Source: Chloroflexota bacterium
GTDB lineage: Bacteria > Chloroflexota > Anaerolineae > Anaerolineales > UBA11858
DNA: 10,998 nucleotides
Assembly (NCBI GenBank): GCA_003513015.1
Contig: DOTA01000523.1
Location: forward strand, 20,591-31,588
Reading direction: 5' to 3'
The stretch's first letter is position 1. The number at the start of each line of letters is the position of its first letter. The notes beneath the pieces were generated by a model. It was not told where the DNA came from. It worked only from the letters and a program-made list of their open reading frames with translations, and searched no databases. The position numbers were made by a program, and so were the translations under genes. Of the stretch, positions 461 through 10,998 are shown piece by piece.

Positions 461-3400
461 CAGAGCATTTGTGTGGTAACCAGTATCAACGATGCGGGGC
501 CGGACACCCTGCGGCAATGCCTGCAAGATGTGGTCACTGGAGATAGTATCAGCTTTGATACCAGTGTCTTTCCGCCCGGCAGCCCGGTGACCATTATGCT
601 AAATAGCGAGCTACCTCAATTGAATCAAGGAAATATCAGCATCGATGCCAGCAACGCCGGGGTGATCTTAGATGGCAGCGGTTTGTCGAATGAACCTGGT
701 TTGCGGATTCAATCCGACGGCAACCAGATCATAGGTTTGCAGTGGCTCAATTTTCCGAACGATGTAATTTTTGTCCAGGGGAAAAATAATCTCATCGGTG
801 GCGATCGCAGCCTGGGCAGCGGCCCGCTGGGCCAGGGCAACTTATTTGGCAATAATGCCGGTGTCACCATAGTGATTCAGGGCACGGGCACCATGAGCAA
901 TACCATTTCCGGCAACTACATCGGCGTTGGCCTGGATGGCAGCACAGCTTTGCCCAATTATGGCGGCATTCGCGTTGAGGGCGGCGCCCAATATAACCGG
1001 ATTGGCGGTGATACCCCCGGTGAAAGTAATGTCATTGCTGGGAATACCTGGCGCGGCATCTCCATCAACGGGGTTGGTGATATTTATCCCCAGGACCCGC
1101 TCCTCGACGATGTTTCGCTCACCTTTGATGGCAGCGCCAACCTGCTGGCGAATAGCGGCTTCGATAGCGACACCCTGCACTGGGTCACTGCAGATGATGA
1201 CCCGGCCTTTGGCCGCAGCCTCAACACTGGCGATTATCATTCATCCCCCGCCAGCTACCAATTCAACCGCAACGCGGCTTGGGGCGTGATGCGCAGCTTT
1301 TACGATACCGCCGCCCAAACCGGCTCCATCCCCGATCCTTATCAGGCTAGCAGCTCGATCTGGATCACGGTAACACCCGGAACCCAGGTCGAGTTGAGCT
1401 ATTGGTATAACCTGGGCTTTGGCACAGCCTTCATATTGGGCCGGGATACCGGCGGCGGCTGGCGAAATCTGGAAGTGCTTGACTGCAATTGCATGGTCAC
1501 AGATTGGACCTATGCCGCCTTCACCGCCAAAATCCCCGGCGATATCGATGCCATTGGCATTCAATTCGATATGCGGATTAACGAGCAAACCGCTCATAAC
1601 ATCGTCAGCGGCAACTACATCGGCACGGATGCCAGCGGCCAAAACCCGCTGCCCAACCAGGAAGATGGCATTCGCCTCGAAAGTGGCACTGTCGACAACC
1701 TGATCGGCGGCCCGGATCAGGCCGCCCGCAATATCATTTTTTCGAATGGTTTCGCCGGGGTGCGGATCATGAATCCTGCCACGACCGGCAATATCATCCA
1801 GGGAAACTACCTCGGTTTTGGGCTGGGAGGCATTCGTCAGGCTTATCCCGTCGATATGGCCATGTCGCCCAATTTTGCGACAGATTGCACCCTGTATGTG
1901 GCAACCCAATCGACCGGCATCCATAAAACCACGGATTGCGGTGCCACCTGGAATGAAGTCAACCAGGGCTTGACCGAATCCCGTTTTATGATCGTTAAAA
2001 TCCCGCCCGACGCGGCCAATGCTAATCGCGTTTATGCCCTGGCCGAAACAGGCGCTTTGTTTATCACCCAAGACGGCGGTGCCAATTGGAGCCTGGTCAG
2101 CACCGTGCTGCAAGGCATTGATCGGCGTAACCTGGCGCTCTCCGCCAACTTCAACGTGGATCAAACCCTATACGCTTCCGCGGAAAACTGGAGTTGGCAG
2201 GAGTTGGGCGATGGACCCGGCGTGTTCAAATCCACCGATGGGGGCGTCACCTGGGCGCGTGTTGATAATGGCATGAGCGATAAACGCATCTGGAAAGTTC
2301 TGGCCTCGCCCTCTGCGGCTTCGGCGGGGACTTTGTTTGCCCTTGGATATGATGTGATCTACAAATCTACAGATGGCGGCGCGAATTGGAGTTCGCTCGC
2401 CAGCCCCGACAGCAATCTCACCGATCTGGCCCTCTCGCCCAATTTCGGCAGTGACCAAACCATGTTTGCGACCGCCTGGGGCAACAATAATGGACGGGTT
2501 TACCGCTCAACGGATGGCGGCGCTAATTGGACGGGCTTCGATACGCCGCGCGGCGACCCGCGCTTTATCGCCATTTCCCCGGCTTACGCCAGTGACCAAA
2601 CCGTCTGTCATGGCGGCGGCTGGAACGATTGGAGCTACTGCTCCTCCGATGGTGGCCTGACTTGGAATCAGCGCTTCAGCGGGCTGCCCGGTGGCCTGAA
2701 CTCAGGCGCAACCGGCATTCTGTTCACGCCCAATTACGCGACGACCCACACCCTTTACATGATCAGCCCCTCGGGCATCTCACGCTCGACGGATCGCGCC
2801 GAAACCTGGATCGTGCTAAACAGCCTGCATCCGGTCGGGAACGGGCAGGGTGTGGTGGTGGAAGACCGCGCCCACCAGAATACTATCGGTCCCGATAATG
2901 TGATCAGCAACAATGCCAGTGGCATTGAAATCCATTGGGACGCAAGTGACAACACAATTACGGGTAATCAAATCGGCACCTGGCCTGGCGGCCTTTCGGC
3001 GTTGCCCAATATCCAGGATGGTGTTCAGATTAATGGCAGCTACAATACCATCACGGATAACTTGATCAGCGGCAACCTGGTGGAAGGGGTACGCATCAAC
3101 GGCGAATCGGCCTTTGAAAATGTGGTGGCCGGGAACCTGCTGGGCACCGATATTACGGGCAATCAGGTTTTGGGCAACGGTGGAGCGGGTGTTTCCCTGC
3201 ACAGCGGCGCACATCACAACCTGGTCGGCGGCCATACCCCAGCCGAGCGCAACCTGATCAGTGGCAATGGTTATGCCATGGGCCTGTGGGATTGGAACAC
3301 AGCCTATAACACCATCTCCGGCAACTATGTGGGCGTGAATGCGGCCGGAACGGCAGGACTTTACAGTGGCAGCGGCATTCAAATCAACAGAGGCGCCAAC

Positions 3401-6400
3401 CACAACCTGATCGGCGGGCTGACGCCCGAAGAAGGCAACCTGATCAGCGGCAATAAATGGCATGGCGTCCAAATCACTGATGGTGGAACCTTCAGCAACA
3501 CGGTCTCGGCTAATATTATTGGCCTGGATGCCGGTGGCACTTACGCCATCCCCAATGGAGGAAGCGGTGTGTGGGTGGAAAATGGGCCAGAATACACGGT
3601 GATTGGCGGTGACACACCCGGTGAACGCAATATCATCAGTGGTAACGGCATTGGTGAGAACTGGGATCGGGTGGGTGTGTTTATCGGTGGGCAGGGTACG
3701 GCTTACACCCTGGTTCAGGGTAACTATATCGGCTTGGATATTTCGGGGGCACACCCCCTGGGTAATTTGGGGCATGGTGTCGAATTGTGGGTGGGCACGC
3801 ATGATAACCAGATTCGCGATAATGTGATCAGCGCCAATGGCTGGGAGGGCATTTTGGCGCTCAACGAAACCCCCAACAACCTGATTGACGGTAACTATAT
3901 TGGCCTAAATGCGGCAGGCACAACTGCCTTGGGTAACCGACGCAATGGTATCTACTTTGGCGAAGGCGGTTGGGATAATCGTTCGCCGCGGGATAATACG
4001 ATCAGCAATAATGTCATCAGCGGCAATGGCTTTAGCGATGGTGGCTACAGCGGTATCGTCATTGATGGTGGTTCTGCGAGTGGCAACCTGATCTTTGGGA
4101 ACAAGATTGGCACAGATCCCAGTGGCACCATACCCCTGCCGAATGCTTTTATCCTGGCTGAAGCGCAACAAGATTCGCTGGAAATAAGTGATTTCGATTC
4201 CGCACTGCCTAACCCCACATCCCTGAGTGGTTCCACTACGCCTAATTCTCTAATCAGCCAGGCGAGTCAAATGCAAATCCTGGATGTTCAACGGGATCCT
4301 TCCGCGATATCAGCTCCCAGCGGATCGCCCAATGCGAATGCCCAGAATGGAGTGACGTTCTATAACGGCGCGCACAATAATACAGTCGGCCCGAATAACG
4401 TCATTGCCTTCAATGGCTGGCATGGTGTTGAAGTCAATGGCAGCAGCGCTGGCAACACCATCACCCAAAACAGCATCTTCCGTAATACGCAGCAAGGTAT
4501 TGCCTTGGCCGATGGCGGCAACCACAACCTGATGTCCCCGCGCATCACCAGTTCCAGTCTCGTTGGCGGCACGGCCAGCGGTACAGCCTGCGCCAATTGC
4601 ACAATCGAGATTTTCTCAACCACCGATGAAGAAGGCCAGACCTTCGAAGGCAGCACAGTTGCTGACGTCAACGGCGCTTGGGCCTTCAATGCCGGTCACG
4701 CCTTGGTTGGGCCGAACCTGACAGCCACTGCCACCTCTGCCGAAGGTGACACCTCCGCCTTCTCGCAACTCTTCAATCTCTTGGTGTTCGATTTGAACGT
4801 TCCGCAAGACCTGAATGCCCTCAATCGCCTGGGCTTGCAGTACGATCTGGTCAATGGGGCTGCCTTTGCCAGCGTGGATTTGAGCAACTATGATGTACTC
4901 TTTGTCGGCTTCACCGGCAACGATCCCCAGCCCGACGATTTGTTGCAACCTTTACTTGACCGGCAGGCCGATATCGCTGCCTTCGTACAAGCCGGTGGCG
5001 CTCTGGTGGCAAACTCGGAAGATGGGGTGGTTGCCACTCCCCTGGACTGGCTGTGGGTTCCGGTTCCGGTCACACACCGTAATTCCAACAACCAGCAAAT
5101 GCTCATAAACCTGCCCACCCACTTGCTGATGGAGGGTCTGACCGAATCAGACCTGAATGGCTGGTGGCCCTACCACAACACCTTCACCACCTGGGACTGG
5201 CCCGAAGCCGAAGTCGTGTTGACTGAACCGGGTTCTGGCGAGGCTATTATTCTGGCAGGTAGCTATGGCAGCGGCCGGATGATTTTTAGTGGTTCGGACC
5301 CCGATTATCACGGGGAAGAAGGCGCTGCCAAATTGTTATCGAATGAAATATACTGGGCTGCGGGTGTCTTGACAGATCAGCCGCCCTTCGTAGCCTGGCA
5401 CCGCCCGGCCAACGCTGAAGGCACTTCAGCCAACACGCTGGTCGATGCTTACTTCGATCAGATGATTGATCCCATCACTGTGACCGCAGCCAACTTCAAG
5501 GTTGTCGGCAGCCAGAGCGGCGCAGTTAGTGGTGCGCTGGATTATGACAACTACTTTGGCGTGGCTACCTTCACGCCGGATACCCCCTTCAGCGTTGGCG
5601 AAACGGTCACGGTCACGGTCAGCGGCAACATCCAAGACCTAACCGGCAACGGGCTGGACGGCAATGGCGACCAAATTAGCCAGGGTTCGCCCATCGATGA
5701 CTATGTGTGGACGTTTACCATCCGCGACCCACACACGTTAGTGGTCAACAGCACCGGCGACGATGGCATGTGGAACTACGTGGAGGGCCAACTCACGCTG
5801 CGTCAGGCCATGGAAACCTGTCAGGCTGGTGATACGATCACGTTTGATCCGGTTGTGTTTCCGCCTGCCTCGCCTACTACGATCTTTGTCGAAAACGGTG
5901 AATATAATGCCATGTGGCCCGGCTATGTGACCATTGACGCTTCCAATGCCGGGGTGATTCTTAATGGCAGCCGCCTGGGCGGCGGTAACGCCTTCAACAT
6001 TGTCTCCGATGGCAACGCCATCCGCGGTTTACAAATCCTGTCCTTCCCTGATCAGGCCATCAACTTTATGTGGCGCAGCCAGCACAATGTGATTGGTGGC
6101 AGCAATGCCACGCCCGGCGGCGTGTGCAGCGGGCAGTGCAACTTGATCAGCGGCAACGGGGCCAGCGCCATTAACCTCAACGGGCTGGGTGTGAGAAACA
6201 ACCTCGTTTCCGGCAACTATATTGGCACCGATCGCAGCGGCAATACAGCTATCAGCAACAACCTGCGCTATGGTGTCAACGCGATTGACATCTCAGATGG
6301 CGCTAGCTACAACCGCATCGGCGGTGATACCCCAGGTGAGCGCAACCTGGTGAGCGGCAACCACTACGGTATCGTGATCAATTACGCCAATTACAACGAG

Positions 6401-9400
6401 GTGGTTGGCAACTATCTGGGTGTCAACGCGGCTGGCACAGCCGCGCTGGGCAACCGTGCCGCCGGAACAGGTGTGGGAGGCGGCCATCACAACACCTTCC
6501 GCAATAACCTGATCAGCGGCAACGATTGGGTGGGGCTGTATCTGCATAATTGGGGCGCCGATTACAACGTGGTCATCGGCAACCGCATTGGCACCGATGC
6601 CAGTGGCAGTGGTGCTATCCCCAATGGCTCGGGCATTGAACTTAATAATGACGCTCGAAACAATCGCATCGGCGGTATCACACCTGCGGAGCATAACGTA
6701 ATCGCTTTTAACAACGGCGACGGCATCGCTGTCTATGGTGGCGGAAGTTGGGCTAACACTTTCCAGCAAAATAGCATCTATGCGAACAGTGGACAAGGCA
6801 TCGCTTTATGGTGGATAGATGCCTTGCCGCAACCGGTCGTGGTGACTGCCTCCCCAGCCGGAACAGCCAGTGGCACCGCGCCCGCGAATTGCACGATTGA
6901 AATCTTCTCGGATAATGACGACGAAGGTCGCTGGTACGAAGGCACAACCACCTCCGATGGCAGCGGTAACTGGTCGTTTAACAAGGGCAGCGCCTTCAAC
7001 GGGCCGAACATTCACGCCACCGCCACCGATGCCGATGGTAATACCAGCGAATTCAGCGGCCCCGGCCCTATCATTGACGGCCTGTGGCCCCCCTCAGCCA
7101 ACCCTGGCTCAAATAATCTGGTATTTTGGCTGTGGGGCAGCAACTTCCGCGAGAACCCGCCCTTGGGCGTGGATTTCGGCGCTGGTATGGATGTTACGAA
7201 GATCGAATTCGTCCACTCTGGCTTGCTAAAACTTTACGTTAATATTGCCCCCGATGCCGCCTATGGCCTGCGCGACGCCACCGTGACCATCAACGACGGG
7301 CAATCCTTCACGCTGTCGAGCGTCTTTGAAGTAGTGTCGGAATTGCCACCGCCGCCCGTGGTAACCGGTGTGGATCCTAATCAGGCTGCACCCGGCACGT
7401 CGAGCGAGTTTTTTATCTTTGGTAGCAACTTCATTAATCAACCGCAGGTCAGCGTCAGCGGTGGTGATGTGGGAGTCAATTGGGTAGATTTCCAATCCGA
7501 CAAAAAGCTCTGGGTGAGTTTCTCTGTAAATGCGGGAGCAACCTTCGGGCCGCGTGATGTGACCGTGACGAACCCGGAAGGCCAATCCTTCACGCTGACA
7601 AACGCCTTCGTCATCGCCCCGCCCATCTTCGAAGATGTCGCGCCCTCCTTTGGGCTGAATCTGCACACTGGCGAAGATGGCGCAGCCTGGGGTGATTGGA
7701 ATGATGATGGCTGGCTCGATCTGGCCTTCGGTAGTAACTTCCTGTTCACCAATAACGCCGCGGCCTCCTTCACCGATGAAACCGTCAATGCCGGCCTGGA
7801 GTGGAACGATCAGTATAGCGGCTGGGCCTGGGGCGATTACAACAACGACGGCAAACTTGATCTGCTTTCGAGTTGGCGCAAGGTCTACCGCCAGAACAGC
7901 CTGCCCTTCAGCAAAGTGTTGGATGGCGGCGGCAATCACCCGCCCCTGGCCTGGGCCGATTTCGACCGCGACGGCGATCTGGATGCCTACGCCGATGGTA
8001 TTCTTTACCGCAATGACGGCAGCGACATCTTTACGGATGTTACTGGCGCCGCGGGGATCAATCCCAGCGGGTACCTGCTCTCGGCTACCTGGGCCGATAC
8101 CGATAATGATCTCTGGCCCGATCTGTATATCACCAACAACAGCGGTAACGACTATCTTTATCATAACAACGGTAATGGCACCTTTAGCGATGTCACCAGC
8201 GCGGCCGGTATCAACAATGGAGGCTCCGGCCACGGGGCGACCTGGGGTGATTATGATAACGATGGCGATCTTGACCTGTTTGTTGCCAACAATAATAACG
8301 AATATAGTGTGCTTTTCCGCAACAACGGCGATGGCACCTTCACCAATGTCAGCGAAGCCGCCGGTTTGCACGACCGCCAGGGCAATGGAACAGGTGCCAA
8401 CTGGCTCGATTATGATCTGGATGGTTGGCTGGATGTTTTCGTGGTCAACCGCGATGACCGCAACCGTCTGTATCACAACAACGGCAACGGTACCTTCACG
8501 GATTACGGCTCAGCAATAGGCGCAGCCTATAACCAGGATAGTGATGGTAGCGCGGTCGGTGATTACGATAATGATGGCGACCCCGACATCTTCGTGGTCA
8601 GCGGCACCTGGAATTGGTCGAATACTCCCAGCCGCTTGTTGCAAAACAACCTTGACCATACCAATCGCCATTGGCTGAAAGTGCGTTTGGAAGGTATTCT
8701 CAGCAACCACACCGGCATCGGTGCCCGTGTGGTAGTTTACACCGATGGGCCATTGCAGACGCGCTTAATCGCCGGTTCTACCGGCTACATGAGTCAAGAT
8801 GCCCCTGAAGCACTCTTCGGCCTGGGAAACTACACTGGGATTGTTGGCGTAATTGTCTACTGGCCGAGCGGTGTGATGGATGTACGCAATGTGGCAGTGG
8901 ATCAGACTATCGTGATTGCGGAATCCACACCCTACTTCCACGATCTCGGGCTGACGAGCGTTCTTCCTGCGGGTGAGCGCCCGATAAACATTGCCTTCCA
9001 GCCTTTCGTTACTCTGCGAAACTATGGGCAATCCGCCGATGGCGCGTCCGTGACTTGCCGCATCGTTCACAATAGTGCACAAGTTTACGCCCAAACGCTC
9101 AATACGGGCTTGCTTCCACCAGCTAACTGGAAATCGTTGACCCTTCCGGCCTTTACACCTACCGAAACCGGTAACTATCAACTGACCTGCCAGGTCGCTT
9201 TACCTGGAGACGAACGTACCAGTAACGATATCCTGGTTCAAAATATCTCGGTCACCGAACAGGTGACGGATGTCTGGTCAAAGGATGATCCCTATGATGA
9301 TGGCGATGTGCCCAGCAGCCTGAACAACTGGTATATGTCACCCGACCTGTGGGTGCGTAATGCTGATGATGGCGGTCTGATCCCACAAGACCCGATCAAG

Positions 9401-10468
9401 GGCATCACCAACACCGTATATGTGCGCCTGCGCAACCGCGGCAACACCACCATCACAACCGGAGATGTAAATGTTTACTGGATTGAACCCTCCTTAGGCG
9501 TGCGCTGCGGTGGTTGGGCTGAGATCGGTGTGGTCAACTTCACCAATCTATTGCCCGGTGAACAGCGTATTCTCAAACTGCCTTGGGTACCCAGCCGTAG
9601 CGGACACACTTGCTTGCAGGATGTAATCAATTCGCCACAAGATCCCTACGCGGCCGCACTGGAATGCACGCCGCAATGGGTGCCCTGGGATAACAACGTC
9701 TCCTGGCATAATGTCAATATTCTGGCAAACAGCGTTACCTTGGGGAATTCGCCCATGGATATTAAGGAATCGGCAGTTCAACTTGTCAACGTCTATGAAG
9801 TGCCCAAAGATGTAGATGTGATTGTAGATCGCCTGAGCTTCCCGGCAGATGGCGTAATCACAGTTCGTTTACCCGTTGGCTTGTTTAATCGTTGGTTGGA
9901 TTATGGCAAAAACTGGGGCGAGGGCATCGAAGTCTTGACCACCACCCACGAAATCCGGATCACCGATGCCATCTCAGCAACGATTGGAGCGATCCCGATG
10001 ATGGCGGATGAGGTAGTAACCGTCGGGTTGGAATTTAGTGGCCCGGCCGGATTGGAGTTCGAGATGGGCATCCGCGAGCGCATTGATGGCATCACCATGG
10101 GCGGCGTATCGTACCAGTGGATGATTCCCGATACAACTCCTCCAACGATTATCAGTGTGGAGCCTGTCAATGATGCTGTGAATGTGTTGCTGGATGCACC
10201 GCTTGTGATCACGTTCAATGAACCCGTTAGCCCGTTGACACTGGAACTCTCGGTTGATCCTGACCCCGGAATGTGGTCTTACGAATGGAACGATGACAAC
10301 ACAGTTGTAACCGTCACCCATGCTGCTTTCACGCCCGATACAACCTATCAGTTCAGTTTCAGGGTTAGTGATGTTTCTGGCAATGCGGTCCTTGCGCCCT
10401 ATCAATGGGAGTTTACTACCTTGTCAGAGGAGTTTTATCTGTATTTGCCCATTGTCATACGACAATGA
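356..10468 (+). CDS. Giant secreted mosaic protein (CSLREA / beta-helix / Asp-box propeller / FG-GAP-UnbV / Big_5), 3370 aa
   Basis: Exported multidomain protein, probably a surface or extracellular adhesin or binding scaffold; that role is inferred and no enzyme activity is shown. Domains in order: signal peptide 1-35; CSLREA-like cap 38-105; right-handed beta-helix to ~1395, broken by a jelly-roll-like domain (262-412), a seven-Asp-box propeller (494-824) and a low-complexity spacer (1264-1330); CTIEIFS module 1396-1472; alpha/beta flavodoxin/GATase-like domain 1473-1673; Big_5 Ig-like 1676-1791; second CSLREA cap 1793-1877, second helix 1878-2159, second CTIEIFS module 2160-2235; two IPT/TIG domains 2238-2330 and 2334-2420; FG-GAP propeller 2424-2769; UnbV 2770-2856; CARDB-like modules 2860-2969 and 2970-3122, the latter opening with DVWSKDDPYDDG; unassigned beta segment 3123-3258; Big_5 3259-3355; tail LYLPIVIRQ. 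There is no LPxTG motif, S-layer homology domain or C-terminal membrane helix. Start chosen on the GGGAGG site; stop TGA at 10466-10468. The frame is intact over 10.1 kb with no visible frameshift. It stands alone, with its own promoter and hairpins after the stop. Confident on gene and domain classes, less so on exact borders. Confidence 0.95.
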   Translation: MKTQYIIPKMIRSIPFLAASLMIAVVLFVPLASRAQSICVVTSINDAGPDTLRQCLQDVVTGDSISFDTSVFPPGSPVTIMLNSELPQLNQGNISIDASNAGVILDGSGLSNEPGLRIQSDGNQIIGLQWLNFPNDVIFVQGKNNLIGGDRSLGSGPLGQGNLFGNNAGVTIVIQGTGTMSNTISGNYIGVGLDGSTALPNYGGIRVEGGAQYNRIGGDTPGESNVIAGNTWRGISINGVGDIYPQDPLLDDVSLTFDGSANLLANSGFDSDTLHWVTADDDPAFGRSLNTGDYHSSPASYQFNRNAAWGVMRSFYDTAAQTGSIPDPYQASSSIWITVTPGTQVELSYWYNLGFGTAFILGRDTGGGWRNLEVLDCNCMVTDWTYAAFTAKIPGDIDAIGIQFDMRINEQTAHNIVSGNYIGTDASGQNPLPNQEDGIRLESGTVDNLIGGPDQAARNIIFSNGFAGVRIMNPATTGNIIQGNYLGFGLGGIRQAYPVDMAMSPNFATDCTLYVATQSTGIHKTTDCGATWNEVNQGLTESRFMIVKIPPDAANANRVYALAETGALFITQDGGANWSLVSTVLQGIDRRNLALSANFNVDQTLYASAENWSWQELGDGPGVFKSTDGGVTWARVDNGMSDKRIWKVLASPSAASAGTLFALGYDVIYKSTDGGANWSSLASPDSNLTDLALSPNFGSDQTMFATAWGNNNGRVYRSTDGGANWTGFDTPRGDPRFIAISPAYASDQTVCHGGGWNDWSYCSSDGGLTWNQRFSGLPGGLNSGATGILFTPNYATTHTLYMISPSGISRSTDRAETWIVLNSLHPVGNGQGVVVEDRAHQNTIGPDNVISNNASGIEIHWDASDNTITGNQIGTWPGGLSALPNIQDGVQINGSYNTITDNLISGNLVEGVRINGESAFENVVAGNLLGTDITGNQVLGNGGAGVSLHSGAHHNLVGGHTPAERNLISGNGYAMGLWDWNTAYNTISGNYVGVNAAGTAGLYSGSGIQINRGANHNLIGGLTPEEGNLISGNKWHGVQITDGGTFSNTVSANIIGLDAGGTYAIPNGGSGVWVENGPEYTVIGGDTPGERNIISGNGIGENWDRVGVFIGGQGTAYTLVQGNYIGLDISGAHPLGNLGHGVELWVGTHDNQIRDNVISANGWEGILALNETPNNLIDGNYIGLNAAGTTALGNRRNGIYFGEGGWDNRSPRDNTISNNVISGNGFSDGGYSGIVIDGGSASGNLIFGNKIGTDPSGTIPLPNAFILAEAQQDSLEISDFDSALPNPTSLSGSTTPNSLISQASQMQILDVQRDPSAISAPSGSPNANAQNGVTFYNGAHNNTVGPNNVIAFNGWHGVEVNGSSAGNTITQNSIFRNTQQGIALADGGNHNLMSPRITSSSLVGGTASGTACANCTIEIFSTTDEEGQTFEGSTVADVNGAWAFNAGHALVGPNLTATATSAEGDTSAFSQLFNLLVFDLNVPQDLNALNRLGLQYDLVNGAAFASVDLSNYDVLFVGFTGNDPQPDDLLQPLLDRQADIAAFVQAGGALVANSEDGVVATPLDWLWVPVPVTHRNSNNQQMLINLPTHLLMEGLTESDLNGWWPYHNTFTTWDWPEAEVVLTEPGSGEAIILAGSYGSGRMIFSGSDPDYHGEEGAAKLLSNEIYWAAGVLTDQPPFVAWHRPANAEGTSANTLVDAYFDQMIDPITVTAANFKVVGSQSGAVSGALDYDNYFGVATFTPDTPFSVGETVTVTVSGNIQDLTGNGLDGNGDQISQGSPIDDYVWTFTIRDPHTLVVNSTGDDGMWNYVEGQLTLRQAMETCQAGDTITFDPVVFPPASPTTIFVENGEYNAMWPGYVTIDASNAGVILNGSRLGGGNAFNIVSDGNAIRGLQILSFPDQAINFMWRSQHNVIGGSNATPGGVCSGQCNLISGNGASAINLNGLGVRNNLVSGNYIGTDRSGNTAISNNLRYGVNAIDISDGASYNRIGGDTPGERNLVSGNHYGIVINYANYNEVVGNYLGVNAAGTAALGNRAAGTGVGGGHHNTFRNNLISGNDWVGLYLHNWGADYNVVIGNRIGTDASGSGAIPNGSGIELNNDARNNRIGGITPAEHNVIAFNNGDGIAVYGGGSWANTFQQNSIYANSGQGIALWWIDALPQPVVVTASPAGTASGTAPANCTIEIFSDNDDEGRWYEGTTTSDGSGNWSFNKGSAFNGPNIHATATDADGNTSEFSGPGPIIDGLWPPSANPGSNNLVFWLWGSNFRENPPLGVDFGAGMDVTKIEFVHSGLLKLYVNIAPDAAYGLRDATVTINDGQSFTLSSVFEVVSELPPPPVVTGVDPNQAAPGTSSEFFIFGSNFINQPQVSVSGGDVGVNWVDFQSDKKLWVSFSVNAGATFGPRDVTVTNPEGQSFTLTNAFVIAPPIFEDVAPSFGLNLHTGEDGAAWGDWNDDGWLDLAFGSNFLFTNNAAASFTDETVNAGLEWNDQYSGWAWGDYNNDGKLDLLSSWRKVYRQNSLPFSKVLDGGGNHPPLAWADFDRDGDLDAYADGILYRNDGSDIFTDVTGAAGINPSGYLLSATWADTDNDLWPDLYITNNSGNDYLYHNNGNGTFSDVTSAAGINNGGSGHGATWGDYDNDGDLDLFVANNNNEYSVLFRNNGDGTFTNVSEAAGLHDRQGNGTGANWLDYDLDGWLDVFVVNRDDRNRLYHNNGNGTFTDYGSAIGAAYNQDSDGSAVGDYDNDGDPDIFVVSGTWNWSNTPSRLLQNNLDHTNRHWLKVRLEGILSNHTGIGARVVVYTDGPLQTRLIAGSTGYMSQDAPEALFGLGNYTGIVGVIVYWPSGVMDVRNVAVDQTIVIAESTPYFHDLGLTSVLPAGERPINIAFQPFVTLRNYGQSADGASVTCRIVHNSAQVYAQTLNTGLLPPANWKSLTLPAFTPTETGNYQLTCQVALPGDERTSNDILVQNISVTEQVTDVWSKDDPYDDGDVPSSLNNWYMSPDLWVRNADDGGLIPQDPIKGITNTVYVRLRNRGNTTITTGDVNVYWIEPSLGVRCGGWAEIGVVNFTNLLPGEQRILKLPWVPSRSGHTCLQDVINSPQDPYAAALECTPQWVPWDNNVSWHNVNILANSVTLGNSPMDIKESAVQLVNVYEVPKDVDVIVDRLSFPADGVITVRLPVGLFNRWLDYGKNWGEGIEVLTTTHEIRITDAISATIGAIPMMADEVVTVGLEFSGPAGLEFEMGIRERIDGITMGGVSYQWMIPDTTPPTIISVEPVNDAVNVLLDAPLVITFNEPVSPLTLELSVDPDPGMWSYEWNDDNTVVTVTHAAFTPDTTYQFSFRVSDVSGNAVLAPYQWEFTTLSEEFYLYLPIVIRQ
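1139..1591 (+). other. Jelly-roll / CBM-like domain inserted in the helix (residues 262-412)
   Basis: The segment opens with NLLANSGFDSDTLHW, the usual start of carbohydrate-binding-module-like beta-sandwiches (N-x-G-F-E/D ... W). It continues with SYQFNRNAAWG, SSSIWITVTPGTQVELSYWY and a closing strand IDAIGIQFDMRIN. Size (~150 residues) and strand pattern fit a jelly roll. It sits between the coil ending GISINGVG and the coil starting NIVSGNYIGTD. Two cysteines in LDCNCMV may be structural. Ligand unknown; fold assignment is by pattern only. Confidence 0.55.
1835..2827 (+). other. Seven-Asp-box beta-propeller inserted in the helix (residues 494-824)
   Basis: Seven Asp-box (BNR) motifs of the S/T-x-D-x-G-x-T/N-W type occur with their Asp at residues 527, 573, 628, 673, 720, 765 and 813: TTDCGATW, TQDGGANW, STDGGVTW, STDGGANW twice, SSDGGLTW and a degenerate STDRAETW. 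Spacings of 45-55 residues match one blade each. A second motif of the form SPNFxxDQTLYxA recurs out of phase. This resembles VPS10/Ycf48-type propellers and not a sialidase: the catalytic Arg triad and Tyr/Glu pair of sialidases cannot be made out. Probable role is protein or glycan recognition (inference). Confidence 0.8.
4772..5374 (+). other. Flavodoxin / class I GATase-like alpha/beta domain, probably non-catalytic (residues 1473-1673)
   Basis: The pattern is that of a Rossmann-type GATase-like domain: strand LLVFDLN, helix, SNYDVLFVGF, a helix ending IAAFVQAGGALVANSEDG (1541-1557), then GSYGSGRMIFSGSDPDYH (1635-1652), which resembles the 'YGxGRVxxxGxDP' end seen in DUF4350/ThuA-like and beta-galactosidase-trimerisation domains. 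The position after the GGALV strand, where a nucleophilic Cys would sit in true amidotransferases, has Asn-Ser and not Cys, so a binding role is more likely. It is the only clearly alpha/beta unit in an otherwise beta-rich protein. Confidence 0.55.
5604..5621 (+). repeat. Three-unit hexamer repeat CGGTCA
   Basis: CGGTCA is repeated exactly three times in frame and encodes the Thr-Val alternation of a beta strand in the first Big_5 domain. Gain or loss of a unit would not shift the frame. It is probably incidental. Confidence 0.5.
5987..6832 (+). repeat. Second beta-helix tract (residues 1878-2159)
   Basis: This is a shorter, uninterrupted helix of the same repeat type as the first, with three GNYIG-type turns (NLVSGNYIGT, EVVGNYLGV, NVVIGNRIGT) and IGG corners such as RIGGDTPGERNLVSGN. 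It follows the second CSLREA-like cap (TLVVNSTGDDG, LTLRQAMETCQAGDTITFD; residues 1793-1877) and leads into the second CTIEIFS module, so it forms the plain copy of the series seen in the first half. Confidence 0.85.
7625..8923 (+). other. FG-GAP/VCBS seven-bladed propeller plus UnbV domain (residues 2424-2856)
   Basis: Seven Ca2+-loop-like motifs begin at D2447 (DWNDDGWLD), D2494 (DYNNDGKLD), D2535 (DFDRDGDLD), D2581 (DTDNDLWPD, lacking the loop Gly), D2632 (DYDNDGDLD), D2685 (DYDLDGWLD) and D2736 (DYDNDGDPD), spaced 41-53 residues, as expected for integrin-like blades. The following ~87 residues from NRHWLKVRLEG to DQTIVI, with GIGARVVVY and VYWPSGVMDVRNV, match the ASPIC/UnbV domain that usually trails FG-GAP repeats in CRTAC1-like proteins. 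Calcium-dependent folding is likely from family knowledge. Confidence 0.88.
10433..10465 (+). other. C-terminal FYLYLPIVIRQ tail, candidate phylum-specific export/anchor signal
   Basis: After the last Big_5 strand (WEFTT) the protein ends SEEFYLYLPIVIRQ-stop. The short aromatic-hydrophobic-Pro-hydrophobic-basic ending resembles the '(Y/F)LPL(V/I)x(R/K)' ends I recall on many exported Chloroflexota proteins. It is too short for a membrane helix and is not LPxTG or a known T9SS domain. Function is unproven. Confidence 0.5.
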
Positions 10469-10556: not shown

Positions 10557-10593
10557 AACGGAGTGGAAATATTTGTGGTATTTCCACTCCGTT
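10557..10593 (+). terminator. 15-bp perfect hairpin downstream of the giant gene
   Basis: AACGGAGTGGAAATA (10557-10571) and its exact reverse complement (10579-10593) flank a 7-base loop. ATTTCTGTTTTC follows, a broken T-run, so this is the better candidate terminator for the giant mRNA, about 90 bases after its stop. The broken T-run makes efficiency uncertain. Confidence 0.6.
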
Positions 10594-10677
10594 ATTTCTG
10601 TTTTCAAGGGAAGCTCTTCCAGGACAGCCTGGATAAGATCGCTGATAGACTGGGGCAGAAATATCATAAAAAAACTC

Positions 10678-10708
10678 TTGACTTGGAGTTAACTCTAAGT
10701 GTTACACT
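10678..10708 (+). promoter_or_regulatory. MerR-type promoter/operator of the aldo/keto reductase
   Basis: TTGACT (10678-10683) and TACACT (10703-10708) are separated by 19 bases, two more than the sigma-70 optimum. The interval contains an inverted repeat, ACTTGGAGTT (10681-10690) with AACTCTAAGT (10691-10700), with one mismatch. A long spacer holding a dyad is the hallmark of promoters activated by MerR-family proteins, which untwist the spacer DNA. The GAGTTAACTC core resembles operators of the AdhR/NmlR aldehyde-responsive branch as I recall them. The regulator gene is not in the window. Confidence 0.75.
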
Positions 10709-10760
10709 ATCTGTGGATGCACATCATGGCTTTCGTCCGGGATTGAAAAGGAGATTGGAA

Positions 10761-10998
10761 ATGAAATATGCAAAACTTGGCAATACCGGATTGGATGTAT
10801 CGCGGATTTGTCTGGGCTGTATGAGTTTTGGCACGGCCGAGGGGTGGTTCCATAACCCATGGGCGCTGGATGAAGAGACCAGCCGCACCATCATCAAAAG
10901 AGCACTGGATTTAGGGGTTAATTTTTTCGATACCGCCAATGTTTATGCATACGGTGCAAGCGAGGAAATTCTCGGGCGTGCCCTGAAAGATTATGCCA
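10761..10998 (+). CDS. Aldo/keto reductase, YajO-like, N-terminal part (cut by window end)
   Basis: Predicted cytoplasmic NAD(P)H-dependent oxidoreductase with a TIM-barrel fold that reduces aldehydes or ketones; the exact substrate cannot be told. The 79 visible codons show the family start MKYAKLGNTGLDVSRICLGCMSFG followed by the signature FFDTANVYAYGASEEILGRAL, in which D57 and Y62 match the catalytic Asp and Tyr; the Lys and His of the tetrad lie beyond the window. Wording and spacing closely resemble E. coli YajO. Family members are about 320-330 residues, so roughly three quarters is missing. Start supported by AAAAGGAGA at 10746-10754, with the GGAG core seven bases upstream of the ATG. 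A MerR-type promoter lies ~50 bases upstream, so it is probably induced by reactive aldehydes or similar stress (inference), independently of the giant gene. Confidence 0.92.
   Translation, partial: MKYAKLGNTGLDVSRICLGCMSFGTAEGWFHNPWALDEETSRTIIKRALDLGVNFFDTANVYAYGASEEILGRALKDYA

Follow-up and report, generated by a model that had tools for sequence, protein, structure and literature searches.

Evidence for an Asp-box propeller nested in register in a beta-helix loop of a large Chloroflexota protein

The locus and the family relationships of the propeller

The window, i.e., the whole stretch of 10,998 nucleotides of Chloroflexota contig DOTA01000523.1 analysed here, is dominated by one open reading frame (ORF) for a multi-domain protein (Table 1). 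Sequence comparisons and predicted structures support the reading that a beta-propeller of this protein is nested in one loop of a right-handed parallel beta-helix and that the register of the coil is kept. Over the whole protein, Pfam cut-offs were exceeded by Beta_helix (PF13229, 64.5 vs 25.9), NosD (PF05048, 58.5 vs 23.6), Sortilin-Vps10, FG-GAP_3, UnbV_ASPIC, Big_5, and Big_6. The first two matches, together with regular rung motifs, place the scaffold among the right-handed parallel beta-helices. Scanned alone, the stretch after the insert (nt 2855-4405) again scored over the cut-offs for Beta_helix (54.9) and NosD (47.7). The 114 residues directly before it (nt 1493-1834) gave no Pfam match when scanned alone, and rung motifs are visible there.

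Seven Asp boxes, the seventh of which is degenerate (TDRAETW), and 28 predicted strands (seven times four) assign residues 493-824 to the Asp-box beta-propellers. A seven-Asp-box propeller at nt 1835-2827 had been proposed in the initial annotation; both the number of boxes and the position, with a start at nt 1832, were recovered. In a Pfam scan of the propeller segment alone (nt 1820-2860) the highest score was that of PF15902 (Sortilin-Vps10, 65.4 vs a cut-off of 33), the best stretch of which covers profile positions 4-117 of 446. It was followed by BNR (43.0 vs 27, in the whole protein 21.4 vs 27) and PF14870 (PSII_BNR, 32.2 vs 27, without a listing for the whole protein). Sortilin/VPS10 proteins possess a ten-bladed propeller followed by a 10CC module, whereas here seven blades are predicted and a beta-helix follows directly. 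Ycf48 proper was rejected as well, given a score of 31.1 against the NCBIfam equivalog cut-off of 326.

The chief alternative to a non-catalytic propeller is a GH74- or sialidase-type glycoside hydrolase, for which the helix would hold the substrate or anchor the enzyme. We consider such a catalytic role rather unlikely, as the F510_1955 glycosylhydrolase model (NF045728) reached 91.4, under its curated cut-off of 175, and a single propeller is located between helix turns instead of the two seven-bladed propellers in succession described for GH74 in PMC2716378.

Table 1. Features of the large ORF and their positions in the window.
Feature	Residues	Position (nt)	Strand	Remark
Whole ORF, multi-domain	3370 aa	356..10468	+	N-terminal signal-like stretch judged by eye
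Beta-helix 1: N-terminal cap and first turns	38-240	467..1075	+	Limits by eye; rung motif at 182
CBM_4_9-like insert in another loop of beta-helix 1	241-411	1076..1588	+	Limits by eye
Helix turns preceding the propeller	412-492	1589..1831	+	Last motif GNYLGFGLGG
Nested seven-bladed Asp-box propeller (predicted)	493-824	1832..2827	+	
Helix resuming in register	825-1263	2828..4144	+	Begins HPVGNGQGVVVEDRAHQNTIG...
Ser/Pro/Asn-rich insert in later helix turn, 67 residues	1264-1330	4145..4345	+	Limits by eye
FG-GAP-type second propeller (part), non-nested, and ASPIC/UnbV	2685-2747 (best stretch); 2787-2852	8408..8911	+	
Big_5 Ig-like domain, C-terminal	3259-3355	10130..10420	+	
C-terminal tail FYLYLPIVIRQ		10433..10465	+	

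Loop length, coil register, and predicted structures

The last rung motif before the propeller is GNYLGFGLGG (residues 483-492); behind the propeller, the helix is taken up again by GVVVEDRAHQNTIG (residues 832-845). Both agree with the initial annotation. Loop length was taken as the number of residues from a rung motif to the next GN-type anchor and was measured in 20 proteins and three loci, with P0026, P0125, and P0141 missed by the regular expression. Uninserted loops comprise exactly 9 residues in 151 of 192 cases. In the window protein 340 residues separate the two anchors, and both anchor motifs are kept. Thus, the initial proposal that the propeller replaces a loop of about ten residues has to be corrected: nothing is visibly replaced, and a gap of 9 residues becomes one of 340. 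Except for P0122 (286 residues, with a mis-called exit), all inserted rows (22 out of 23) span 319-344 residues.

The register was examined with a hidden Markov model (HMM) of 537 ordinary repeat units, all from proteins outside the 16 tested. Nineteen nested copies were scanned; P0122, P0125, P0141, P0026, and the three loci were left out. Spliced across the propeller, all 19 units align to this model over 72-76 positions with a median of 49.6 bits (range 34.4-79.5), and the score is maximal at zero shift. Splices displaced by -2, +2, -20, and +20 reached medians of 47.5, 45.8, 35.6, and 22.9 bits, respectively, and the left and right parts of the nested units taken separately 12.1 and 33.4 bits. 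Given the peak at zero shift, the two flanks can be read as the halves of a single repeat, somewhat diverged.

These data bear on a further alternative, in which each flank is a helix of its own and the propeller serves as the linker domain joining them. Tandem layouts of the two domain types do exist: 57 sequences contain both domains outside the nested rule (see below), and 48 of these have two propeller blocks followed by helix units. However, these layouts occur in other proteins, and none of the 48 has a helix unit before its propellers, whereas the break in the nested proteins falls within a repeat unit, the two parts of which fit together best at zero shift. The linker reading is therefore very improbable.

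AlphaFold2 models of window residues 395-950 and of the distant homologue P0125 (851 residues) both reached a pLDDT (predicted local distance difference test) of 88.7 and a pTM (predicted template modelling score) of 0.85. The strand map of the former contains 28 strands in seven blades, and the model predicts seven four-stranded blades which form a complete ring. Judged from the model scores, helix and propeller are predicted in a fixed relative placement. For P0125, two of the three blocks, the largest ones, already account for about 75% of the residues, so that by our own reckoning a pTM of 0.85 needs all three to be placed together. Among the matches listed in the fold comparison are GH74, Ycf48, and designed seven-bladed propellers, and propeller-type names are among the matches listed for the window model in a viral structure library. 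Loop counts, register scan, and the two models, along with the relatives described below, support the initial claim that the propeller is nested in a single loop and leaves the register of the coil intact.

Relatives and other inserts

A scan with two HMMs covered 1439 sequences and open frames. Relatives were classified as nested if a propeller block had nearby helix units both before and after it; as the HMM for propellers had been built from nested copies, the scan leans towards these. Twenty-two entries followed the rule; as two of them represent the locus of the window itself, the set comprises 20 sequences (window included) with 23 nested copies. This search for helix on both sides of a propeller, suggested by the initial annotation, indicates that the arrangement is no product of chance. 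The nested propeller blocks comprise 311-336 residues, three of them occurring in P0002 and two in P0004. Pairwise identity among the nested copies does not exceed 82%, and identity to the propeller of the window protein is 29-78%. P0026 and P0027 appear nested by eye and fall outside the rule, as the first 60 residues behind the propeller contain no scoring helix unit. Taxon labels among the nested sequences include Chloroflexi (P0042) and Anaerolineae (P0141). Seven of the 48 tandem proteins are labelled Pyrinomonadaceae or Blastocatellia.

In a first search for relatives 37 of 61 genomes matched, the whole query being covered only in the window's own genome, and in a class-wide search 186 of 396 genomes matched at E 1e-12 or better. 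Among the loci returned, nested frames were found in at least four of the 396 class genomes (the window's own, G250, G247, and G338). In addition, a contig scan with a single Asp-box peptide pattern matched at least 80 loci. None of the 80 loci kept combined three rungs and three Asp boxes in frame by a strict regular expression, and none passed the HMM-based nested rule; L029, L030, L031, and L034 contain propellers without helix in the portions read. [YF]LP-type C-terminal tails are present in L029-L031 (contigs labelled Chloroflexota, Chloroflexi, and Thermoflexales) as well as in 9 of 14 proteins listed, among them the window protein, and possibly represent a sorting or anchoring signal.

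An assembly chimera or a misread frame would be conceivable for a draft genome of 548 contigs. However, the frame is uninterrupted over 3370 codons, and the layout recurs in 19 further sequences, including three from other genomes of the class (60%, 49%, and 33% identity). As homologues share the layout, we regard this explanation as refuted and give it practically no weight. In a tree of 26 nested and 31 other propellers, the label changes twice and the nested ones fall into three groups; a single-clade origin was not rejected (approximately unbiased test, p 0.176).

The propeller is not the only insert. The CBM_4_9-like stretch matched Pfam with an E of about 0.03, i.e., below the cut-off, and is situated in the repeat unit before that of the propeller, in a different loop. 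P0007 reads through this site (RNIISGNDYNGVGIFDSGTMSNTVSGNYIG), its next two rungs being spaced by 64 residues as in the window protein, and by collinearity we read this place as the empty site of the CBM-like insert. At about the loop position of the propeller itself, other inserts were observed. In the window protein, a later turn carries the Ser/Pro/Asn-rich stretch; P0028 has a GH115_C-like domain there (residues 3775-3978, E 7e-5, 23.1 vs a cut-off of 24.1 and thus just under it), and P0049 a stretch of 177 residues without domain assignment (residues 1359-1535).

It is tempting to speculate, although we would put the chance at a little less than even, that the loop between GNYIG and GN represents a docking slot for whole domains and the solenoid a rail of side-mounted recognition discs, the coil staying undisturbed. 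If so, propellers, CBM-like sandwiches, and other domains would be plugged in, with up to three propellers per chain.

A separate second beta-helix without propeller insert is located further downstream in the window protein (nt 6200-6781; rung motifs at residues 1949-2134). The partial ORF downstream at nt 10563-10997, which runs off the window, resembles an aldo/keto reductase gene, judged by a motif.

Putative role and comparison with known systems

Residue conservation was evaluated in an alignment of 17 close copies with identities of 49-100%. D589, R591, D734, W756, and N757 are kept in all 17, and W612, R736, and H752 in 16 of them; the first of the three P0002 copies lacks W612 and R736. 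According to the strand map, seven of these eight residues are situated in D-A or B-C loops. As to the cysteines, C751 and C762 of blade 6 occur in 17 out of 17 close copies. The columns of C511 and C528 of blade 1 are represented in 16 copies, some of them close kin, of which 12 have both cysteines and 4 have neither. The co-occurrence of these two suggests a disulfide. Paired propeller cysteines and a signal-like N-terminus suit an extracytoplasmic protein, and on these grounds secretion is likely.

The inserts might also be selectively near-neutral decorations of a permissive loop, devoid of a conserved recognition role. The diversity of cargo at about the same loop (Ser/Pro-rich stretch, GH115_C-like domain, and the unassigned stretch of P0049), the missing CBM-like insert of P0007, and the loss of W612 and R736 from one P0002 copy are in agreement with this assumption. 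Neutral cargo, however, would be less likely to keep five residues invariant in 17 of 17 close copies, and we judge such neutrality to be quite unlikely.

We favour, as probably correct, an Asp-box propeller inserted in register into a helix loop, which is predicted to form a complete ring, would likely stand sideways on a secreted, stalk-like protein, and would serve as ligand-binding disc. The solenoid would form the rigid stalk from which the propeller stands out laterally, and recognition would involve the polar and aromatic residues D589, R591, W612, D734, R736, H752, W756, and N757 in or beside the D-A and B-C loops. A role as lateral recognition disc is plausible, with the residues conserved beyond the scaffold as a hint only. 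The most likely role is non-catalytic recognition of a putative ligand, either a glycan or a surface protein, in adhesion or nutrient capture.

Several observations weigh against this interpretation. The spliced units (median 49.6 bits) score below the ordinary uninserted units of the tested proteins (median 70.6, n=111). In the window model, propeller and post-propeller helix account for about 82% of the residues, so that the pTM says little on the helix before the insert. The PDB matches listed for both models are propellers, with no beta-helix chain among them, which speaks neither for nor against helix stacking. H752 sits in a strand end beside a loop of the presumed binding face. Finally, invariant positions, counted without P0123, are not enriched on that face (7 of 53 in D-A and 4 of 39 in B-C loops, as compared to 11 of 64 in A-B and 9 of 50 in C-D loops, which carry scaffold motifs). 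Due to this lack of overall enrichment the eight residues are considered only a candidate site.

If the interpretation is correct, a repeat protein tolerates a closed ring of 330 residues in a loop of 9, and does so repeatedly and without loss of register. The beta-helix would then represent a modular scaffold for display, in nature as well as for design purposes, and a testable binding module would be at hand for a large, unstudied class of proteins, likely of the Chloroflexota.

In our searches of the open-licence full texts of PMC, no description of a whole propeller nested in a beta-helix was found. The closest architectural relatives are the passengers of SPATE autotransporters (Hbp, EspP, and kin), for which PMC9289746 describes a beta-helix with subdomains d2-d4 looped out of it. 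The window protein shares with them the beta-helix scaffold and a separate subdomain projecting from an extended helix loop. In contrast, the SPATE subdomains are called small and the word propeller is absent from the main text of that review, and the window protein lacks a match to an autotransporter beta-barrel (Pfam, E up to 0.1), its C-terminus consisting of Big_5 and a short tail. HxuA of Haemophilus is likewise a beta-helix and binds a partner through long insertions in its loops, but according to PMC4873976 these insertions are loops (the longest comprising residues 512-578), and the propeller is part of haemopexin, the ligand from the host.

Asp-box blades are shared with the propellers sorted into types 1-4 by Quistgaard and Thirup in 2009, type 1 being one uninterrupted propeller (PMC2716378). 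In types 2 and 4 other domains are inserted into or between the propellers; in the text available to us, insertion of a propeller into a beta-helix is not among the types, and "beta-helix" has 0 occurrences. Ycf48/HCF136 and GH74 propellers are relatives of the insert in fold and sequence, but are single-domain or tandem proteins with other roles and are not located within a helix. The 48 tandem propeller-propeller-helix proteins combine the same two kinds of domain in one chain, but in sequence instead of nested. Thus the fold itself is not new and subdomains in beta-helix loops are already known; what we regard as new is that two common folds are nested in a conserved arrangement that has been duplicated repeatedly.
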